NCBI GenBank assembly: GCA_027366635.1
Contig: DAHXNE010000005.1
Coordinates: 1 to 64,000 of the forward strand
Origin: Gammaproteobacteria bacterium
Lineage (GTDB): Bacteria; Pseudomonadota; Gammaproteobacteria; Steroidobacterales; Steroidobacteraceae
Length of the DNA: 64,000 nucleotides
Reading direction: 5' to 3'
Below are positions 34,952 to 45,816 of the stretch, in pieces. The notes beneath the pieces were generated by a model. The model did no database searches and was not told the DNA's origin. It saw only the letters and a program-made list of their open reading frames with translations. How positions within the stretch are numbered: position 1 is the first letter of the stretch; each line of letters starts with the position of its first letter. Both the position numbers and the translations under genes were made by a program.

Positions 34952-35248
34952 CTACGCCGCCTTCAGCTCCACGTGAATGCGCAGCCCGAGCGAGGATGCG
35001 ATATTGACCAGGGCGTCGAGGGAGAACCGTGAGATGCGGCCGCGAAGCAGGTCATTGATGCGCGGCTGCGTGATGTGGCAGCGCGCGGCGGCTTCCTTCT
35101 GCGTCCACCCCCGGGCGGCGATGAAGTCGGTGAGGCTTCGCATCAGGTCCGCCCGGGCGCGGAGGTTCGCGGCCTCTTCTGGCGTGTCCGCGAGCGCATC
35201 CCACACGCTGGAAAAGCTCTGCGACTTGGTTGGATGTTTGCGCTTCAT
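34952..35248 (-). CDS. higA: HigA-type XRE antitoxin
   Basis: A 98-residue protein with a C-terminal Cro/C1 helix-turn-helix (WTQKEAAARCHITQPRINDL then LLRGRISRFSLDALVNIASS). The frame is intact. Its ATG overlaps the stop of the toxin gene as ATGA, the toxin-first order usual for HigBA modules. HigA binds HigB and represses the operon; the 7-4-7 inverted repeat upstream of higB (35592-35609) is the obvious operator. It remains intact although the toxin gene is broken. Confidence 0.82.
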   Translation of the reverse strand: MKRKHPTKSQSFSSVWDALADTPEEAANLRARADLMRSLTDFIAARGWTQKEAAARCHITQPRINDLLRGRISRFSLDALVNIASSLGLRIHVELKAA

Positions 35249-35581
35249 GGGTCACCTCGCATCAGCGCGCGATATCGAGTCCGGGCAAGTTCAATGTCTC
35301 GCTTGGCCGTCGCCTGGGTCTTCTTCTGGAAAGCGTGCAGCACGTAAACGGCATCGGCGAGCCGATGCCAAGTACACGACCCGGTACGCGCCCGTGTCAT
35401 CCCACACCCGTAGCTCTTCGACGCCTTTCCCGATATCCGGCATCGGTTTCCAGTCCGATGGTCGCTTCCCGCGTTGCACCTGCTCGAGCTCGTAGCCCGC
35501 ATCGTGGCGCGCATCCTCAGGGAAGTCTCGCAGGCACTTCAGCGAGTCACCCAAGAACTCGACGCGCTTGAGCTTCGTCAT
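35245..35581 (-). pseudogene. higB: HigB-type (phage Gp49-like) toxin gene with a one-base frameshift
   Basis: The first frame from ATG 35581 reads a normal HigB/Gp49 toxin to AYRVVYLAS. One base later, in the next frame, the expected C-terminus continues: LADAVYVLHAFQKKTQ, then the IELARTRY helix, ending exactly at the higA start. A single extra C at 35362-35363 (plus strand) accounts for the break. Without it the protein would be about 111 residues, normal for this RelE-fold mRNA interferase. As written, translation gives a 96-residue product with a wrong tail, likely inactive. A sequencing or assembly error cannot be excluded. Confidence 0.75.
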
Positions 35582-36494: not shown

Positions 36495-37727
36495 GTGACC
36501 GCCGCGACACCTGCCGGGGCACCGCGGATGCTCGCGCCCGCCGAGGCCGACGCGCTGATCGCGCGGCATATGGTCTGCCTGCCCGAGGTCTCGTTGCCAC
36601 TGCTGCAGTGCGCCGGCGCCGTCTTGCGCGAAACCATCCGCGCCGAGCGCGATCAGCCGCCCTTCGACCGCGTGACCATGGACGGCATTGCTCTGTGCAG
36701 CACGGCGGTGAGCACAGGCACGCGGCGCTTGCGGATCGAGGCGACACAGGCGGCCGGCGAGGCCGCGGGCACCCTGTCGTCTCCGCAAGGATGCATCGAG
36801 GTCATGACCGGAACCCCGCTGCCCGGCGGCTGCGATTGCGTAATCCCCGTTGAGCAGATCACGGTGCGGGATGGCACCGCCAGTCTGTCCGATGAAATCG
36901 AGGTCGAGGCCTGGCGGAACGTCCACCGGCGCGGTACGGACGCCCGTCAGGGCGCGCAGCTGTTGACGGCGGGCACGCGGCTCGGACCGGTGGAAATCGC
37001 CCTGGCCGCCGCCGCGGGCAGGGCCCGCGTGCGGGTCTCCAGCCAACCGATGCTGGCCGTCATCTCGACGGGCAATGAGCTGGTGGAGCCGGGGGAGCCC
37101 ATCCTTCCCCATCAAGTGCGCCGATCGAACGCCTATGCCATCGCCGCAGCGCTGAGCCTGCGCGGCTACCCGCGCGTCGGGCTCGACCACATTCGCGACG
37201 ACACCGCGCAGTTGGAGGAGCGCCTGAAGTTCTACCTCGAGACCCACGACGTGCTGGTATTGAGTGGCGGGGTCTCGATGGGGCGGCTCGACCTGGTGCC
37301 CCAAACGCTCGACAAGCTCAAGGTGCGCTGCGTGTTCCACAAAATCGCGCAGCGTCCCGGCAAGCCGCTCTGGTTTGGCGTGGCCCCGAGCGGGGCGACC
37401 GTGTTCGCACTCCCCGGAAATCCCGTTTCGACCGCCGTATGCGTCTCCCGGTACGTGCTGCCGGCGCTTGCGGCCGCTCAGGGTCATACTCCGCCGCAAC
37501 CGGAACGGATCGCGCTCGGCGAGGCGTTCACCGTGAACCCCGCGCTGACGTTCTTTCTGCCCGTGCGCGTATCCACCGATGAGCAGGGAGCGCGCGCGGC
37601 CCTGCCACGGCCGACCCACAGCTCCGGAGACTTCACCAGCCTCGTCGGCACGGACGGATTCGTCGAGTTGCCGCCCGGACCGAGGACCTACCCCCGGGGA
37701 TTCGTGACGAGCCTGTACCGCTGGTAG
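36495..37727 (+). CDS. moeA: Molybdopterin molybdenumtransferase MoeA
   Basis: A 410-residue enzyme inserting molybdate into adenylated molybdopterin. Domain II/III signatures are visible: ERDQPPFDRVTMDGIAL, then GTPLPGGCDCVIPVEQ, ISTGNELVEPGEP and VLSGGVSMGRLDLVP, with ALPGNPVSTAVC near the end. The length matches E. coli MoeA (411). GTG 36495 abuts the previous stop; ATG 36528 is an alternative. It is the first recognised enzyme of a moeA-moaA-moaC-mobA/moaD-moaE/moeB run. Confidence 0.95.
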   Translation: MTAATPAGAPRMLAPAEADALIARHMVCLPEVSLPLLQCAGAVLRETIRAERDQPPFDRVTMDGIALCSTAVSTGTRRLRIEATQAAGEAAGTLSSPQGCIEVMTGTPLPGGCDCVIPVEQITVRDGTASLSDEIEVEAWRNVHRRGTDARQGAQLLTAGTRLGPVEIALAAAAGRARVRVSSQPMLAVISTGNELVEPGEPILPHQVRRSNAYAIAAALSLRGYPRVGLDHIRDDTAQLEERLKFYLETHDVLVLSGGVSMGRLDLVPQTLDKLKVRCVFHKIAQRPGKPLWFGVAPSGATVFALPGNPVSTAVCVSRYVLPALAAAQGHTPPQPERIALGEAFTVNPALTFFLPVRVSTDEQGARAALPRPTHSSGDFTSLVGTDGFVELPPGPRTYPRGFVTSLYRW

Positions 37728-37802: not shown

Positions 37803-38849
37803 ATGGCCGACCAGGATTCCGCCGACGCCGATCTGCGGTTGCGCGATCCGCGCGGGCGCGCTCTGCGTGACCTGCGCATATCGGTCATGGACCGGTGCAA
37901 CTTCCGCTGCCCCTACTGCATGCCGCGCGAGACGTTTCACGAGGGGTACCGTTTCCTCGGCTCGCGCGAGCGGCTGTCCTTCGATGAAATCGTTCGTCTG
38001 GCCCGCCTGACGGTGCGGCTCGGTGTGCGCAAGCTGCGCCTGACCGGCGGGGAGCCGCTGCTGCGGCCGAACCTCACCGACCTCATCGGCGATTTGACCA
38101 CCATCGACGGCGTCGAGGACGTCGCCCTGACGACCAATGGCACGCTTCTGGCCAAGCACGCCTTCGAGCTGCGTGCCGCCGGCCTGCATCGCGTCACGGT
38201 GAGCCTGGACAGCCTCGACCCCGAAGTGTTTCAACGCATGAGTGGCGGGATCGGCGGCCTCGAGGAGTCGCTCGCGGGCATCGAGCAGGCGCGCCGCGCA
38301 GGCCTCGGGCCCATCAAGGTGAATGTGGTCGTGCAGCGCGGCGTGAACGATCACACGGTGCTGGAGCTGCTGGAGCGCTTTCGGGGAACCGGCGTGATCG
38401 TACGGTTCATCGAGTACATGGACGTCGGGAACCGCAACCATTGGCACTCGGACGCGGTCGTCCCTTCGAGCGAGCTGCTGGCTCGCATCGCGCGGCGCTG
38501 GCCCCTCCAGGCTCTGCAACCGTCCTATCGCGGGGAAGTCGCGGAACGCTATGGCTTCATGGACGGGGGCGGCGAAGTGGGATTCATCTCGTCGATCACG
38601 CAACCGTTCTGCGGCGATTGCTCCCGTGCGCGTCTGTCATCCGACGGCGTGCTCTATACCTGCCTGTTCGCTACCCACGGCGTGGCGCTGCGCGACAAAC
38701 TGCGCAGCGGCGCGAGTGACGACAACCTCCTCGATTTGCTGCGCGCTAGCTGGCGCGCACGAACGGACAATTACAGCGAACAGCGGCAGGCGCGGCTCTC
38801 CGACGCCGCCGGCGAGCGCAAGGTCGAAATGTTCTATATCGGTGGCTGA
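37803..38849 (+). CDS. moaA: GTP 3',8-cyclase MoaA (radical SAM)
   Basis: A 348-residue radical-SAM enzyme starting molybdopterin synthesis from GTP. The SAM-cluster motif CxxxCxxC is Cys32-Cys36-Cys39 ([10 protein letters not shown]); the C-terminal cluster has [18 protein letters not shown]. The terminal GG needed for activity is present (MFYIGG). ATG 37803 gives the usual short leader before [12 protein letters not shown]; an ATG at 37740 would add 21 residues and its GAGG is too close. Its TGA overlaps the moaC ATG. Confidence 0.96.
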
Positions 38850-39355
38850 TGGCAAAACACGCACTATCCCATCTGGATCGCGACAACCGCCCGACAATGG
38901 TGGACGTGGGCGGCAAAGAGATCAGCTTGCGCGAGGCGCTGGCGGAAGCGCGCGTAAAACTGCCGCGGCCGGTCGCCGCCGCGCTGCGCCGCAGTGGTCA
39001 CCGAACACACAAAGGACCGGTATTCGACACCGCGATCATCGCCGGGGTAATGGCCGCCAAACGGACCCATGAGCTGATCCCGTTCTGTCATCCGCTCGGC
39101 CTCGAGCATTGCTCGATCAAGATCGACCAGCGCACGAACGGAGAAATCCACGTGCGCTGCCGCGTCGCGATTCATCATCGCACCGGAGTAGAGATGGAGG
39201 CGCTCACGGGCGCCTCGGTCGCCGCCCTGACGATATACGACATGTGCAAAGCCCTCTCGCACGACATCGAAATCGGCGGCATCCGCCTGCTCGAAAAAGC
39301 CGGCGGCAAGCGCGCCTACACGCGTCGTGCCCGGCGCCCGGCGGGTCGCTCGTGA
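38849..39355 (+). CDS. moaC: Cyclic pyranopterin monophosphate synthase MoaC
   Basis: A 168-residue enzyme completing cyclic pyranopterin monophosphate. Signatures include [34 protein letters not shown] and [20 protein letters not shown], followed by catalytic KALSHDIEI. Length fits the family, with a short Arg-rich tail. It starts inside the moaA stop (TGATG) and its own stop overlaps the GTG of the next gene (GTGA). Confidence 0.96.
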
Positions 39356-40212
39356 GCGCCGCGATCGCATCGGGCGCGCCCCTGTACGGACTGGTGCTCG
39401 CCGGGGGACACAGCAGCCGGATGCAACGTGACAAAGCAACCCTCGAGTACCAGGGCGAGAGCCAGCTCGAGCGCACGATGGCCTTGCTCGACGGCCGCGT
39501 CACCCAGGCCTTCGTGTCGGTGCGCGCCGCACAGCAGGCTGATTCCCACCGGTCGCGCTATGCGCTCATCGTTGACGAGCAGCAGGACCTGGGTCCCTGC
39601 GGCGGCATTCTTGCCGCCCAGAGCCGCCATCCGCAGGCCGCATGGCTGGTCCTCGCCTGCGACCTGCCGTTTCTCGACGGCCACACACTCGATCATCTGA
39701 TCGCCGCGCGCGCGCCCGAGCGTCCCGCCACGGCTTATCGCTCGGCCCGCGACGGCCTGCCCGAGCCCCTGTGCGCGATCTACGAGCCGGCAAGCCACGC
39801 CGCGCTCCTGCGCGCGGTACAGGGCGGCCAGCGCTGTCCGCGCAAGTTCCTCATCGGCACCGACGCGCTGCTGATCGATCCGCCCGACCCGCGCGCGCTC
39901 GAGAACGTCAACACGCCGGATGAGTTCGAGCGGGCGCGCGCGATGCTCGCGGGGGGCGCCACCGCCGGCTCCAAGCGCATCGCCGTGCAGTATTACGCAC
40001 TGCTGCGCGAGCAGGCCCAATGCAGCGGCGAGACGGTACGGACCGCGGCCGGCACCCCGAACGAGCTATATCGTGAGCTGAACAGCCGATACCGCTTCAC
40101 ACTGCCGCCGGAGCTGCTGCGCGTCGCGGTCAACGCCGAATTCGCGGACTGGTCGCACCCGCTCGCCGATGGCGACTCCGTGGTATTCATCCCGCCCGTG
40201 GCGGGGGGATGA
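39352..40212 (+). CDS. MobA-MoaD fusion: Mo-cofactor guanylyltransferase plus MPT synthase small subunit
   Basis: A 286-residue two-domain protein. Residues 1-205 are MobA-like, with the GTP loop [31 protein letters not shown] and the metal site in [11 protein letters not shown]; MobA adds GMP to the molybdenum cofactor. Residues about 207-286 are MoaD-like ([15 protein letters not shown]) and end PPVAGG, the free Gly-Gly that MoeB adenylates and that carries the thiocarboxylate. GTG 39352 overlaps the moaC stop; the TGA overlaps the next ATG. Having the sulfur carrier tethered to a late-step enzyme is unusual. Confidence 0.9.
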
Positions 40213-41768
40213 GACCGGCCGTTGCCGAGCGAACAGACATGGTCAACACCTTTCAATTCAGCCCCGAGCCGATCGATCCGTCCACCCTGCGCGGCGCGCT
40301 CGCGGACCCGGCATGCGGCGGTTATGCCAGCTTTGAAGGCTGGGTCCGCGATTGCAACGACGGGCGCGCGGTGCAGCGTCTGGAGTATGAGGCGTTCGAA
40401 GCACTCGCGGTCAAGGAAGGCGAGCGAATCATCGCCGAGGCGATCGAGCGGTTCGGCATCGCGCGCGCCGCCTGCGTCCATCGTCTCGGCACACTGCGGA
40501 TCGGTGAGATGGCCGTGTGGGTCGGCGCATCGGCGCCGCACCGCCACGAGGCGTTTCTCGCCTGCCGTTACATCATCGACGCGGTCAAGCACCGCGTGCC
40601 GGTCTGGAAGAAAGAGCACTACCGCGACGGCGACTCCGATTGGGTCAACTGCGAACGCTGCGCGACCGGGGCGCCCGAAATACACGCCGGCGCGCACGCG
40701 CACGTCGCGCTGCCCGTACCCGATTACTCCCGCCAGAGCGCTCTGCGGGAAGTCGGCGCCTCGGGACAGGCCAGACTCGGCGCCGCGCGCGCGTTGATCG
40801 TCGGCTGCGGCGGCCTCGGCGTGCCCGCCATGAGCTACCTCGCGGGCGCCGGCATCGGACGATTGGGCGTCGTCGACGCCGACGTGCTCGAGGCTTCCAA
40901 CCTGCATCGCCAACCGCTGTATGCGTTGCGGGATTGCGGGCGCCCGAAGGTGGAGCTCGCGGCCGAGCGGCTGCGAGCGCTCAATCCCGCGGTGGACGTG
41001 CGCACATATCCCGTGCGGCTCGACGCAGACAACGCCGCCGAGATGGTGGCGGACTACGACATCATCATCGAATGCACGGACAATATCGCGACCAAGCTGG
41101 CGCTGAACGATGCATGCCTCCGCGCCGGCAAGCCAGCCGTATTCGCCAGCGTCTATCAATACGAGGGGCAGTTGCAAGTCGTACGTCCGGGCGGACCGTG
41201 CCTGCGGTGCCTGTGGCCCGAGGCGGTACGCGACGGGCTGGTGGGCAATTGTGCCGAGGCCGGCGTACTGGGCCCGGTCCCCGGAACACTCGGGACGCTG
41301 CAGGCGCTCGAGGCGTTGAAACTGCTGCTGGATCTGCCCGGTCAGCTTGCCGAGACACTGTTGATCTTCGATCTTCTGACGCTGAACATCAGCCGGATCC
41401 GCACTCGGCGATCTGCGCAATGTCCGCAGCACGCTCTGGCCGGGGACCGTGCGCCCAGCGTCACGCCCGAGTCTCTCGAGGTCGAGTTCGAATCGCTGCA
41501 TGCGGCGAGCGAAGCGGGCTACCTCATCGTCGACATCCGCGAGCGGCCCGAGCAGGCGCTGCGGCCCGCCGTGGGCGCGCCGGTTCACTCCCTACCGCTG
41601 ACCGAGCTGCTCTATGGCGGCACGGATCTGCCGCCCGCCTCGAAGTACCTGCTGGTGTGCGCCGCCGGCGCGCGCAGCCTGGCGGCGGCCCAGGAACTGC
41701 GCGCGCGCGGTCGTGCCCCGATCTTCTCGCTGCGCGGCGGTCTGGCCGCACTGGACTCTAGGGCCTGA
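40209..41768 (+). CDS. MoaE-MoeB-rhodanese triple fusion
   Basis: A 519-residue three-domain protein. Residues about 12-150 are MoaE, the large subunit of molybdopterin synthase, with catalytic Lys127 and Lys134 ([10 protein letters not shown]). Residues about 172-408 are a MoeB/ThiF adenylyltransferase with GCGGLG (199-204) and a zinc site starting C331LRC334; the second pair reads C405PQH408 instead of CxxC. Residues about 420-515 are rhodanese-like with Cys484 in the loop VCAAGARS. It should bind MoaD, activate its Gly-Gly, receive sulfur and use it on precursor Z. ATG 40209 overlaps the previous stop (ATGA); a start at 40239 is possible. Confidence 0.92.
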
Positions 41769-43041: not shown

Positions 43042-44183
43042 GGGGTCGATGACTGCAGCAGCACCAGATCGTCGCGATGAATCAGCTCGTCACGACCGCG
43101 AAAGCCCAATATGCCTTCGATCTCGGCCGACTTGCGGCCCAGGATCCTGGCGGTATCACTGTCCGAGTAGGCGACGATGCCACGGGCCACCTCGGCGCCC
43201 GCCGGCGTGAGCACGCTCACCGTGTCCCCGCGCTCGAACCGGCCGCGGGCGTCGATCACGCCGGCCGGCAGAAGACTGCGGCCGGCACGCAATGCGCGTA
43301 GCGCGCCCGGATCAATGGTCAGGGCACCAGCCGACCGCAGCGTACCGGCGATCCACTGCTTGCGGGCCGCGATCGGGGTCGCGCTCGGTCGAAACCACGT
43401 GCAGCGCGCACCCTGCTCGAGCCGGCGGATCGGATGACGCGGCCGCCCGGCCGCGATGCACAGATGGCAGCCGGCCGCCACGGCAATCCGCGCGGCCAGG
43501 ATCTTGGTGGCCATGCCTCCGCTGCCGAACTCCGAAGCCGAGCCGCCGCCCATGGCTTCGATCTGCGGCGTGATGCGGCGTACTTCGTTGATGAACTGTG
43601 CGTTGACGTCGCGAGTCGGATCTGCGGTGTAAAGGCCATCGACATCCGACAGCAAGACGAGGCAATCCGCCCCCACCATCTGCGCCACGCGCGCCGCGAG
43701 CCGATCGTTGTCCCCGTAGCGGATCTCAGCCGTTGCCACGGTATCGTTCTCGTTGATGACGGGCAAAACTCCGAGTCCGAGCAGCGTCTCGAGCGTAGCG
43801 CGCGCGTTGAGGTATCGCCGGCGGCGTTCACTGTCTTCCAGAGTCAGCAGCACTTGAGCCACGGTGACCTGGTGATTCTCGAATAACTCCTTGTACGCGT
43901 GGGCGAGACGAATCTGGCCGACCGCGGCGGCCGCCTGGCTTTCTTCGAGCCGCAACGCGCCCTTGAGCGACAACTGCCTGCGCCCGAGCGCGATGGCTCC
44001 GGAGGACACGAGAAGCACCTGCTGGCCTCTGCGGCGCAGACGCAACAGATCCTCGACCAGTGTCTCGAGCCAAGTCCGATTGAGGCGACCCGTTCGGCCG
44101 TCGACCAGCAGCGCGGAGCCGACCTTGACGACGACGCGGCGTGCCTTCAGCAACTGGGAATGCGCAGACGAGGAAGGGGGCAT
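43038..44183 (-). CDS. proB: Glutamate 5-kinase with PUA domain
   Basis: A 381-residue kinase for the first step of proline synthesis. The amino-acid-kinase domain (about 1-265) shows [45 protein letters not shown] and [14 protein letters not shown]. Residues about 290-375 form a PUA domain ([16 protein letters not shown]). ATG 44183 has AGG seven bases upstream; the frame runs open further only through the opposite-strand acidic gene. ProB is commonly feedback-inhibited by proline. Confidence 0.95.
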
Positions 44184-44306
44184 GAGAAACCTACTATACG
44201 TGCGGCGAACAATTCCCGCGAGTATCGTCACGCTGGCCCCACCGCGTTGCTCCCGGCCGGCACAACCCCTAAACTTGCGCGGCCGCCAAGTCAGAGGATC
44301 ACATCG

Positions 44307-44648
44307 GTGAGCAGAGATTACGAACCGGTTCCCGGCCAGTGGTACGAGAACCTTGAAGATGAGGAATCCTTCCGCGTGCTCAAAGTGGACGAGGACTCCG
44401 AGCTGGTCGAGATCGAGCATCTCGATGGCGAGATCGAGGAGATGGACCTGGAGAGCTGGCACGAGATGGATCTGGAGCAGACTTCGGAGCCTGAAGGCTG
44501 GGCCGAATCCGAGGATGAGGATGAGGATGAGGATGAGGACGATGATGAGGAAGATGAGGATGAGGATGAGGACGACTGGGATGACGATGAAGACGATGAG
44601 GACGATGAGGACTGGGATGACGAAGACGAAGAGCACGATGCCTGCTGA
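44307..44648 (+). CDS. Small protein with an extremely acidic C-terminal tail
   Basis: A 113-residue protein starting at GTG 44307, seven bases after AGAGGA. Residues 1-65 are folded-looking ([20 protein letters not shown], then [20 protein letters not shown]) and resemble a gammaproteobacterial family of unknown function (DUF6763-like). Residues about 70-110 are almost pure Asp/Glu with three Trp, encoded by tandem GAGGAT/GATGAG codons (44512-44636). Such a tail could mimic nucleic acid or bind cations. It is divergent from proB. The tract may vary in length by slippage. Confidence 0.8.
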
Positions 44649-44763: not shown

Positions 44764-45816
44764 GTGAGCCAAGGGAGCCCCACCGAAGGCTGGCTGCACG
44801 AGAAAGAATCCGCATGGCTGTATCGGCGGGTTGCGGTAGCCGAGCCCGATGTGCGCAAGCGGCAGCTGTTCGAGCAGTTGGCCACCGCCGCAGAAGAACA
44901 GGCGCGCCTCTGGGAGTCCGCCGCGGCCCGCGATCCTGCGGCACAGTCTGTGCCGCGGGCGTTTTACCCTTCCCTGCGCGACCGCATCGTCGCGCGGCTG
45001 GTCGGCTGGCTCGGCCCGCGCGCCATGCGCTCGGTATTGGCGGCAATGAAGCTGCGCGGGCTGTCGGTGTACAGCGGCGCGGTCGTTGCCGGCCATACCA
45101 TGCCGACAACGGTATCGGACATCGGCGCGCGCCATCGCCGGAGCCTGGGCGGCAACCTTCGGGCCACCGTGTTCGGCATCAACGACGGCCTGCTCGCGAA
45201 TGCCGGTCTGGTGATGGGCGTCTCGGGCGCCAGCGGCGCTTCCGCCATCGTGTTGATCACCGGAGCGGCCGGATTGCTGGCGGGAGCGCTGTCGATGGCA
45301 GCCGGCGAGTACGTCTCGGTCCGATCCCAGCGTGAGATGTACGAGCACCAGATCGCGCTCGAAAAAGCGGAAATTGCCGAGTATCCGCACGAGGAAGCCG
45401 AGGAACTCGCGTTGATTTATGCGGCCCGCGGCATGCCCCTGGACCAGGCGCGCGACGTCTGTCGAAAGCTGATCGCCCGGCCTCGCGACGCACTCGACGT
45501 GCTGGCCCGTGAGGAGCTCGGCATAAGCGCCGATACGCTCGGCTCACCGGTGGGTGCCGCCGTAGCGTCCTTCCTTTCCTTCGCTGTCGGCGCCGCCGTG
45601 CCGCTGCTGCCCTTCGTATTGGGATGGACGGGCGGGCCAGCCGTGATCGCGGCCGCCGTGCTCACGGCCGCGACGCTGTTCGTGGTGGGACTTGCGATCA
45701 GTCTGTTCACGGGACGCCACGCCGTACGCGGGGGACTGCGCATGGTGCTGATCGGCACCGCCGCCGCCGCGTTGACCTATGCACTGGGCCGCTCGCTTGG
45801 CCTGGCCCTGCACTGA
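44764..45816 (+). CDS. VIT1/CCC1 family transporter with N-terminal ferritin-like domain
   Basis: A 350-residue membrane protein. Residues about 10-95 are a helical, rubrerythrin/ferritin-like domain (HEKESAWLYRRVAVAEPD, then EQARLWES); the rest is VIT1-like with five predicted helices, including FGINDGLLANAGLVMG, GALSMAAGEYVSV and three C-terminal spans after about residue 255. Relatives export Fe2+/Mn2+ or sequester iron. The start is GTG 44764, behind GAGGGCG. Metal specificity cannot be decided from sequence. It stands alone on its strand. Confidence 0.88.
   Translation: MSQGSPTEGWLHEKESAWLYRRVAVAEPDVRKRQLFEQLATAAEEQARLWESAAARDPAAQSVPRAFYPSLRDRIVARLVGWLGPRAMRSVLAAMKLRGLSVYSGAVVAGHTMPTTVSDIGARHRRSLGGNLRATVFGINDGLLANAGLVMGVSGASGASAIVLITGAAGLLAGALSMAAGEYVSVRSQREMYEHQIALEKAEIAEYPHEEAEELALIYAARGMPLDQARDVCRKLIARPRDALDVLAREELGISADTLGSPVGAAVASFLSFAVGAAVPLLPFVLGWTGGPAVIAAAVLTAATLFVVGLAISLFTGRHAVRGGLRMVLIGTAAAALTYALGRSLGLALH

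Follow-up and report, generated by a model that had tools for sequence, protein, structure and literature searches.

Proteins in which MoeB is fused to a rhodanese domain (MoeBR and MoeZR) are established in bacteria, among them mycobacteria, and what distinguishes MoeBR from MoeZR is reported to be two CXXC motifs toward the end of the MoeB part (PMC3227635). MoaX of Mycobacterium tuberculosis, a MoaD-MoaE fusion, is reported to be active only after cleavage between Gly82 and Ser83 (PMC4326299). MoaD-MoeB and MoaD-MoeBR fusions are described for Archaea and some bacteria, and MoaC-MoaE and MoaC-MoaB fusions are reported in the same source (PMC11237513). ThiS-ThiG and MoaD-MoaE fusions are known as well (PMC1779556).

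We analyzed a window of 64,000 nucleotides from a gammaproteobacterial genome of the family Steroidobacteraceae, in which a single open reading frame encodes MoaE, MoeB, and rhodanese domains. Like MoeBR/MoeZR of Mycobacterium and MOCS3/Uba4, the protein has the order E1-rhodanese, the catalytic Cys in a CxxGxRS loop, and the first zinc-type CxxC; unlike them, it carries MoaE in front and its second zinc pair is not conserved. With MoaX it shares that a component of molybdopterin (MPT) synthase is fused. However, MoaX joins the carrier to the catalytic subunit and is reported to require cleavage (PMC4326299), whereas in the present protein it is the recharging enzymes that are linked to the catalytic subunit, with the carrier on another chain. 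The MoaD-MoeB(R) fusions also connect MoeB(R) to a pathway partner, but this partner is MoaD rather than MoaE, and the described MoaC-MoaE and MoaC-MoaB fusions belong to the same pathway with other partners. The first-pass annotation of this DNA had regarded the three domains as normally separate proteins. This was too strong, since MoeBR and MoeZR are known in bacteria (PMC3227635) and two-domain MoeB-rhodanese frames also occur in our sample of the class; what is new is the joint between MoaE and MoeBR. A search of the open-licence literature found no description of a MoaE-MoeB fusion. The fusion is genuine and conserved, and it rearranges a pathway that is already known: the chemistry is familiar, the arrangement unusual.

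The fusion gene is the last one of an operon with the order moeA-moaA-moaC-(MobA-MoaD)-(MoaE-MoeB-Rhd) (Table 1) and encodes 519 amino acids in one uninterrupted frame. In agreement with the first-pass annotation, Pfam placed all three domains on this one chain. The MoaE profile (PF02391) matched residues 19-129 with an E-value of 4.2e-35, over the cut-off, and the ThiF profile (PF00899) residues 173-406 with an E-value of 2.3e-75. The Rhodanese profile matched residues 430-514 with an E-value of 3.8e-4 and 21.3 bits, just below the cut-off of 22.2 bits; in the genome search the same domain scored 24.5 bits and thus exceeded it. In phmmer searches the MoaE domain matched 2omd, 6jc0, and 1fm0. 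Lys127, Lys134, the GCGGLG loop (residues 199-204), and Cys484 were found where they had been placed from the sequence, the codon of Lys134 (40608-40610) lying just 3′ of the Pfam MoaE match. No ThiS/MoaD match was obtained with Pfam within the fusion ORF; MoaD sits on the MobA-MoaD chain. The fusion reached the cut-off of none of the named MoeB/MoeZ equivalogs of NCBIfam (PRK08762.1, 300.6 bits with a cut-off of 449; PRK07878.1, 227.3 bits with a cut-off of 647) and is not one of them.

Table 1. Features of the moa operon and of the fusion protein, with positions in the window.
Feature	Position	Strand	Evidence and details
moeA	36495..37727	+	ORF and profile matches
moaA	37740..38849	+	ORF and profile matches
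moaC	38849..39355	+	ORF and profile matches
MobA-MoaD fusion, GTG start	39352..40212	+	NTP_transf_3 13-161, ThiS/MoaD 212-286
moaE-moeB-rhodanese fusion gene	40209..41768 (stop included)	+	ORF and Pfam
MoaE domain, PF02391 match	40263..40595	+	residues 19-129; Lys127 codon 40587-40589
Hinge, residues 148-171	40650..40721	+	C148-E-R-C151, then H159, H163, H165; predicted disordered
MoeB/ThiF adenylyltransferase domain	40725..41426	+	GCGGLG 199-204, R234, K247, D291, C331-x2-C334, C348, C405
Rhodanese domain	41496..41750	+	active-site loop C484-A-A-G-A-R-S

A sequencing or assembly error that removed stop codons between the domains, which the first-pass annotation had named as a possible source of the fusion, was ruled out, because the identical architecture recurs in many assemblies of other genomes. 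No pair among the 62 fusions that we aligned exceeded 97% identity. The GC content by codon position was alike across the domains and linkers of the fusion, and its start codon (ATG) shares nucleotides with the stop codon (TGA) of the preceding MobA-MoaD ORF. Relatives align only from residues 3-14 onward, in most cases from 8-14, so that Met11 (ATG at 40239) may be the true start.

The alignment comprised 62 complete triple fusions, 52 from the family sample, two from the order sample, and eight from named loci. All of them share residues R47, H111, R112, K127, and K134 of MoaE, R234, K247, D291, C331, C334, and C348 of MoeB, and C484, G487, and R489 of the rhodanese domain. K127 and K134, seven residues apart, presumably correspond to Lys119 and Lys126 of E. 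coli MoaE, and R234, K247, and D291 are taken to be the Arg, Lys, and Asp of the ATP site. The first zinc-type CxxC of MoeB (C331/C334) is thus present in 62 of 62 fusions. The second zinc pair is not fixed, since C405 is a Cys in 57 fusions and position 408 is variable (H in 24, G in 11, A in 8, R in 7, C in 4, and others). Within the GCGGLG loop, 14 fusions have Cys and 48 have Ala as the second residue.

An AlphaFold2 model of the fusion, based on an alignment of 27 rows, contained three confidently predicted domains (mean pLDDT 84.7) and a hinge at residues 141-178 with pLDDT values below 50. With a pTM of 0.52, the arrangement of the domains in the model was not usable. The first Foldseek match was full-length Uba4 (6yub_A, E-value 3e-28, 422 columns), whose overall superposition on the model is poor (rmsd 12.3); ThiF and MoeB chains came next. 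No MoaE chain was present among the best 50 Foldseek matches listed, and the MoaE domain is identified by its Pfam and phmmer sequence matches.

MoaD must shuttle between the MoeB and MPT synthase sites twice per MPT; in E. coli its two docking surfaces overlap, and it therefore has to move from one site to the other. The fusion is probably an MPT synthase that recharges itself. MobA-MoaD would dock with its MoaD end on the MoeB domain, which would adenylate the free Gly-Gly tail, and the tail would take sulfur from a persulfide on rhodanese Cys484 that is filled by a cysteine desulfurase. The resulting MoaD thiocarboxylate would move to a MoaE site, of the same chain or of a partner chain, and give its sulfur to cyclic pyranopterin at Lys127/Lys134. 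The flexible hinge of 15-72 residues would tether both sites and raise the local concentration. For the fusion we infer activity, shuttling, a gain in rate, and, from the composition of the hinge, metal binding, and channelling of the thiocarboxylate, proposed in the first-pass annotation, would be plausible. With both docking sites on one chain, MoaD shuttling can be tested using one purified protein and MoaD.

Alternatively, the chain might be a precursor that is cut at the hinge into MoaE and MoeBR, in the manner of MoaX, for which cleavage between Gly82 and Ser83 is reported to be essential (PMC4326299). The predicted disorder of the hinge and the presence of Gly-Gly in eight of the 62 hinges would be compatible with such processing. 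However, the cut in MoaX frees the C-terminal glycine of MoaD, whereas here MoaD is on the other chain with its Gly-Gly already free, and 54 of the hinges, including that of the window, contain no Gly-Gly. We therefore regard a processed precursor as very improbable.

The complete MoaE-MoeB-rhodanese frame, checked for each ORF, was present in 52 of 100 sampled Steroidobacteraceae genomes. Three more (G391, G409, G400), interrupted by contig ends or by masked sequence, agree with the fusion, and in five (G373, G411, G427, G452, G463) moaE and moeBR are adjacent and separate. A lone moaE was found in 33 genomes, none of which showed a MoeB match in the fetched stretch, which extended about 3 kb at most to either side of the gene and less at contig ends. 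The remaining seven had no match, or weak or MoeB-type ones only. As a lone moaE occurs in 33 of 100 family genomes, the cofactor pathway does not need the triple fusion. Some relatives possess a separate MoeB-rhodanese paralogue beside the fusion (e.g., G384 and G446).

Outside the family, at least two of the 97 genomes of the order sample carry the fusion (G468, G485). Complete fusions were also found in eight of 25 named loci: five from MAGs labeled 'Proteobacteria bacterium' with 66-90% identity and three from Rhodospirillales/Alphaproteobacteria MAGs (L080-L082) with 47-49% identity, the alphaproteobacterial cases stemming from six exact peptide seeds only, a search that misses distant members. 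Besides the Steroidobacteraceae, two other families of the order and the Alphaproteobacteria include genomes with the triple fusion. In the class sample of 369 genomes, two full-length fusions, both in Steroidobacteraceae, were among the matches listed, which reach an E-value of about 2e-51. In the phylum sample, one of 299 genomes matched at an E-value of ≤ 1e-70, namely that of the window itself, and a divergent fusion outside the class could fall short of this threshold.

The adjacent MobA-MoaD fusion, also noted in the first-pass annotation, is real, with both profile matches in one ORF (Table 1) and a free C-terminal Gly-Gly. The MoaD ORF adjoining the triple fusion ends with Gly-Gly in 62 of 62 loci. 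MobA and MoaD share one frame in 31 of the 62 triple-fusion loci (52 of which show both domains in the fetched stretch), in 23 of the 33 lone-moaE loci of the family, in two of its five split loci, and in none of 49 loci that belong to the order's other families. A coupling of this fusion to the triple fusion was rejected on the basis of 31 of 62 vs 23 of 33 loci. MobA and MoaD were thus joined in an event of their own, seen in this analysis only in the Steroidobacteraceae and their named kin. In loci L044, L114, and L128, MoaC and MobA are encoded in one open frame, a further fusion of the same operon.

A tree of the MoeB domain with 105 rows united the 62 fusions in one clade with seven loci whose genes are adjacent and unfused (support 98/97). 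L091 (Sericytochromatia) and L084 (Nitrosomonas), which carry separate genes in the order moaD-moaE-moeBR, together were sister to the rest of this clade; both have long branches, which meet. An eighth adjacent locus, L085 (Eremiobacterota), was placed elsewhere, among separate MoeB-rhodanese proteins. The gene order of L084 is moeA, moaA, moaC, mobA, moaD, moaE, moeBR, and since moaD, moaE, and moeBR are adjacent and unfused there, an origin of the fusion by loss of the stop between neighboring moaE and moeBR would suit this picture. The five split family loci formed one clade (100/99 in the first and 100/100 in the second tree). As this clade lay among the fusions in both best trees, a later split would be expected; the fork joining it to the nearest fusions had a support of 96/73. 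A topology in which the fusions form a group of their own, apart from the split loci, was not rejected (AU p 0.077), so that a single split is favored but unsure. Overall, the trees favor a single fusion event within an operon of the order moaD-moaE-moeBR, with one split afterwards. Transfer between phyla would be likely.

The same data bear on the question whether tethering brings an advantage. The stop might simply have been lost between neighbors, leaving the domains independent and the fused and split states nearly neutral. In line with this, the best trees place the five split genomes as one clade amid the fusions, and in three of the loci (L115, L136, L137) moaE and moeBR lie in the same frame, separated by a single stop codon. 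Also, the frames shared by MobA and MoaD and, in three loci, by MoaC and MobA suggest that junctions of this operon are easily lost. On the other hand, 52 of the 100 family genomes carry the complete fusion, which was seemingly split only once, and even this event is unsure given the AU test. We assign tethering without advantage somewhat less than an even chance; it does not exclude the chemistry of the self-recharging synthase.

The hinge between MoaE and MoeB is the less expected part of the finding and was absent from the first-pass annotation. Directly after the active-site stretch of MoaE, the fusions read W-V-N-C-x-x-C, followed mostly by a His-rich run ahead of the start of MoeB. C148 is present in all 62 fusions, CxxC in 57, and HxH in 54. 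His makes up 457 of 2433 hinge residues (18.8%), compared to controls of 12 in 1022 (1.2%) in the MoeB-rhodanese linker, 2.6% in the domains, and 2.5, 3.7, 1.6, and 0.7% in the last 30 residues of the MoaA, MoaC, MoeA, and MoaD ORFs, respectively. In lone-MoaE tails of the family (n = 33) the share was 21.9% (172 of 785 residues), in the MoaE tails of the five split loci 22%, in lone-MoaE tails from other families of the order (n = 49) 10.9%, with HxH in 18, and in the tails of 12 other loci 12.1%, where L084 and L091 hold 12 of the 17 His.

The CxxC and the mostly His-rich MoaE tail occur with and without the fusion (lone MoaE of L142 and L144-L175). Because unfused tails are already His-rich with CxxC, the tail probably predates the fusion and was turned into the hinge; in the self-recharging synthase, it would have been retained once the stop between moaE and moeBR vanished. 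The hinge His residues of the fusions are encoded by 296 CAC and 161 CAT codons. The use of both codons spoke against a plain DNA-repeat effect and speaks for selection on the protein, which it does not prove.

A His-rich MoaE tail was not found described in the open-licence literature searched. Moco biosynthesis is reported to require copper (PMC9228816), and the conserved CxxC/His-rich tail hints that MPT synthesis may be linked to metal. The composition of the hinge suggests that it may bind metal. It might store or sense Zn, Ni, or Cu, tuning the synthase or feeding the zinc site of MoeB, and the fusion would simply have inherited it. The invariant C148, the frequent CxxC, and the high share of His in both fused and unfused proteins relative to the second linker and other ORF ends would fit such a role, but the hinge of the window is poor in His (three in 27 residues), that of L138 has none, and those of L049, L112, and L113 have one each. 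We consider a metal store or sensor rather unlikely. A long shot would be a single-chain synthase and recharger gated by metal, in which the conserved C148xxC/His-rich hinge binds a thiophilic metal such as copper or zinc near the MoaE active site. There it would shield the new dithiolene or pass it on, and/or move MoaD from the recharging to the synthase site and back; MPT synthesis would then respond to metal supply. The rival readings are not mutually exclusive, and their odds do not sum to one.

The genome of the window is a draft of 3.03 Mb in 127 contigs with a completeness of 86.6%. Profile searches of this draft gave one MoaE match, in the fusion, one ThiS/MoaD-family match, in MobA-MoaD, and one ThiF match above the cut-off; a second ThiF match of 44 positions and 19.5 bits was below it. 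Since the draft is incomplete, other MoaE, MoeB, or MoaD copies may be missing from it. Six rhodanese matches were obtained, one in the fusion and five further ones in four open frames. Of the separate moaE, moeB, and rhodanese genes that the first-pass annotation had named as an argument against the fusion, additional MoaE and above-cut-off ThiF domains were thus not found in the 86.6%-complete draft, but other rhodanese domains are present. A separate ThiS/ThiF pair for thiamine was not seen in the draft either, for which its incompleteness is a possible cause. PF00384 was found in three proteins: NuoG, an FdhF/YdeP-family oxidoreductase that exceeded its cut-off, and a thiosulfate-reductase-like molybdoenzyme that stayed below those of NCBIfam. 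As the draft encodes the latter two, likely clients of the cofactor are present.

Two further regions of the window are of note. At 34952-35581 on the reverse strand, an HTH_37 antitoxin-like ORF lies beside a Gp49-family ORF, which we take to be HigB-like. The profile match of the latter is spread over two frames, so that this toxin-like gene looks broken by a frameshift. On the forward strand, 43902-44648 encodes a DUF6763 protein with a long acidic Asp/Glu run at its end, and a VIT1-family ORF adjoins at 44764.
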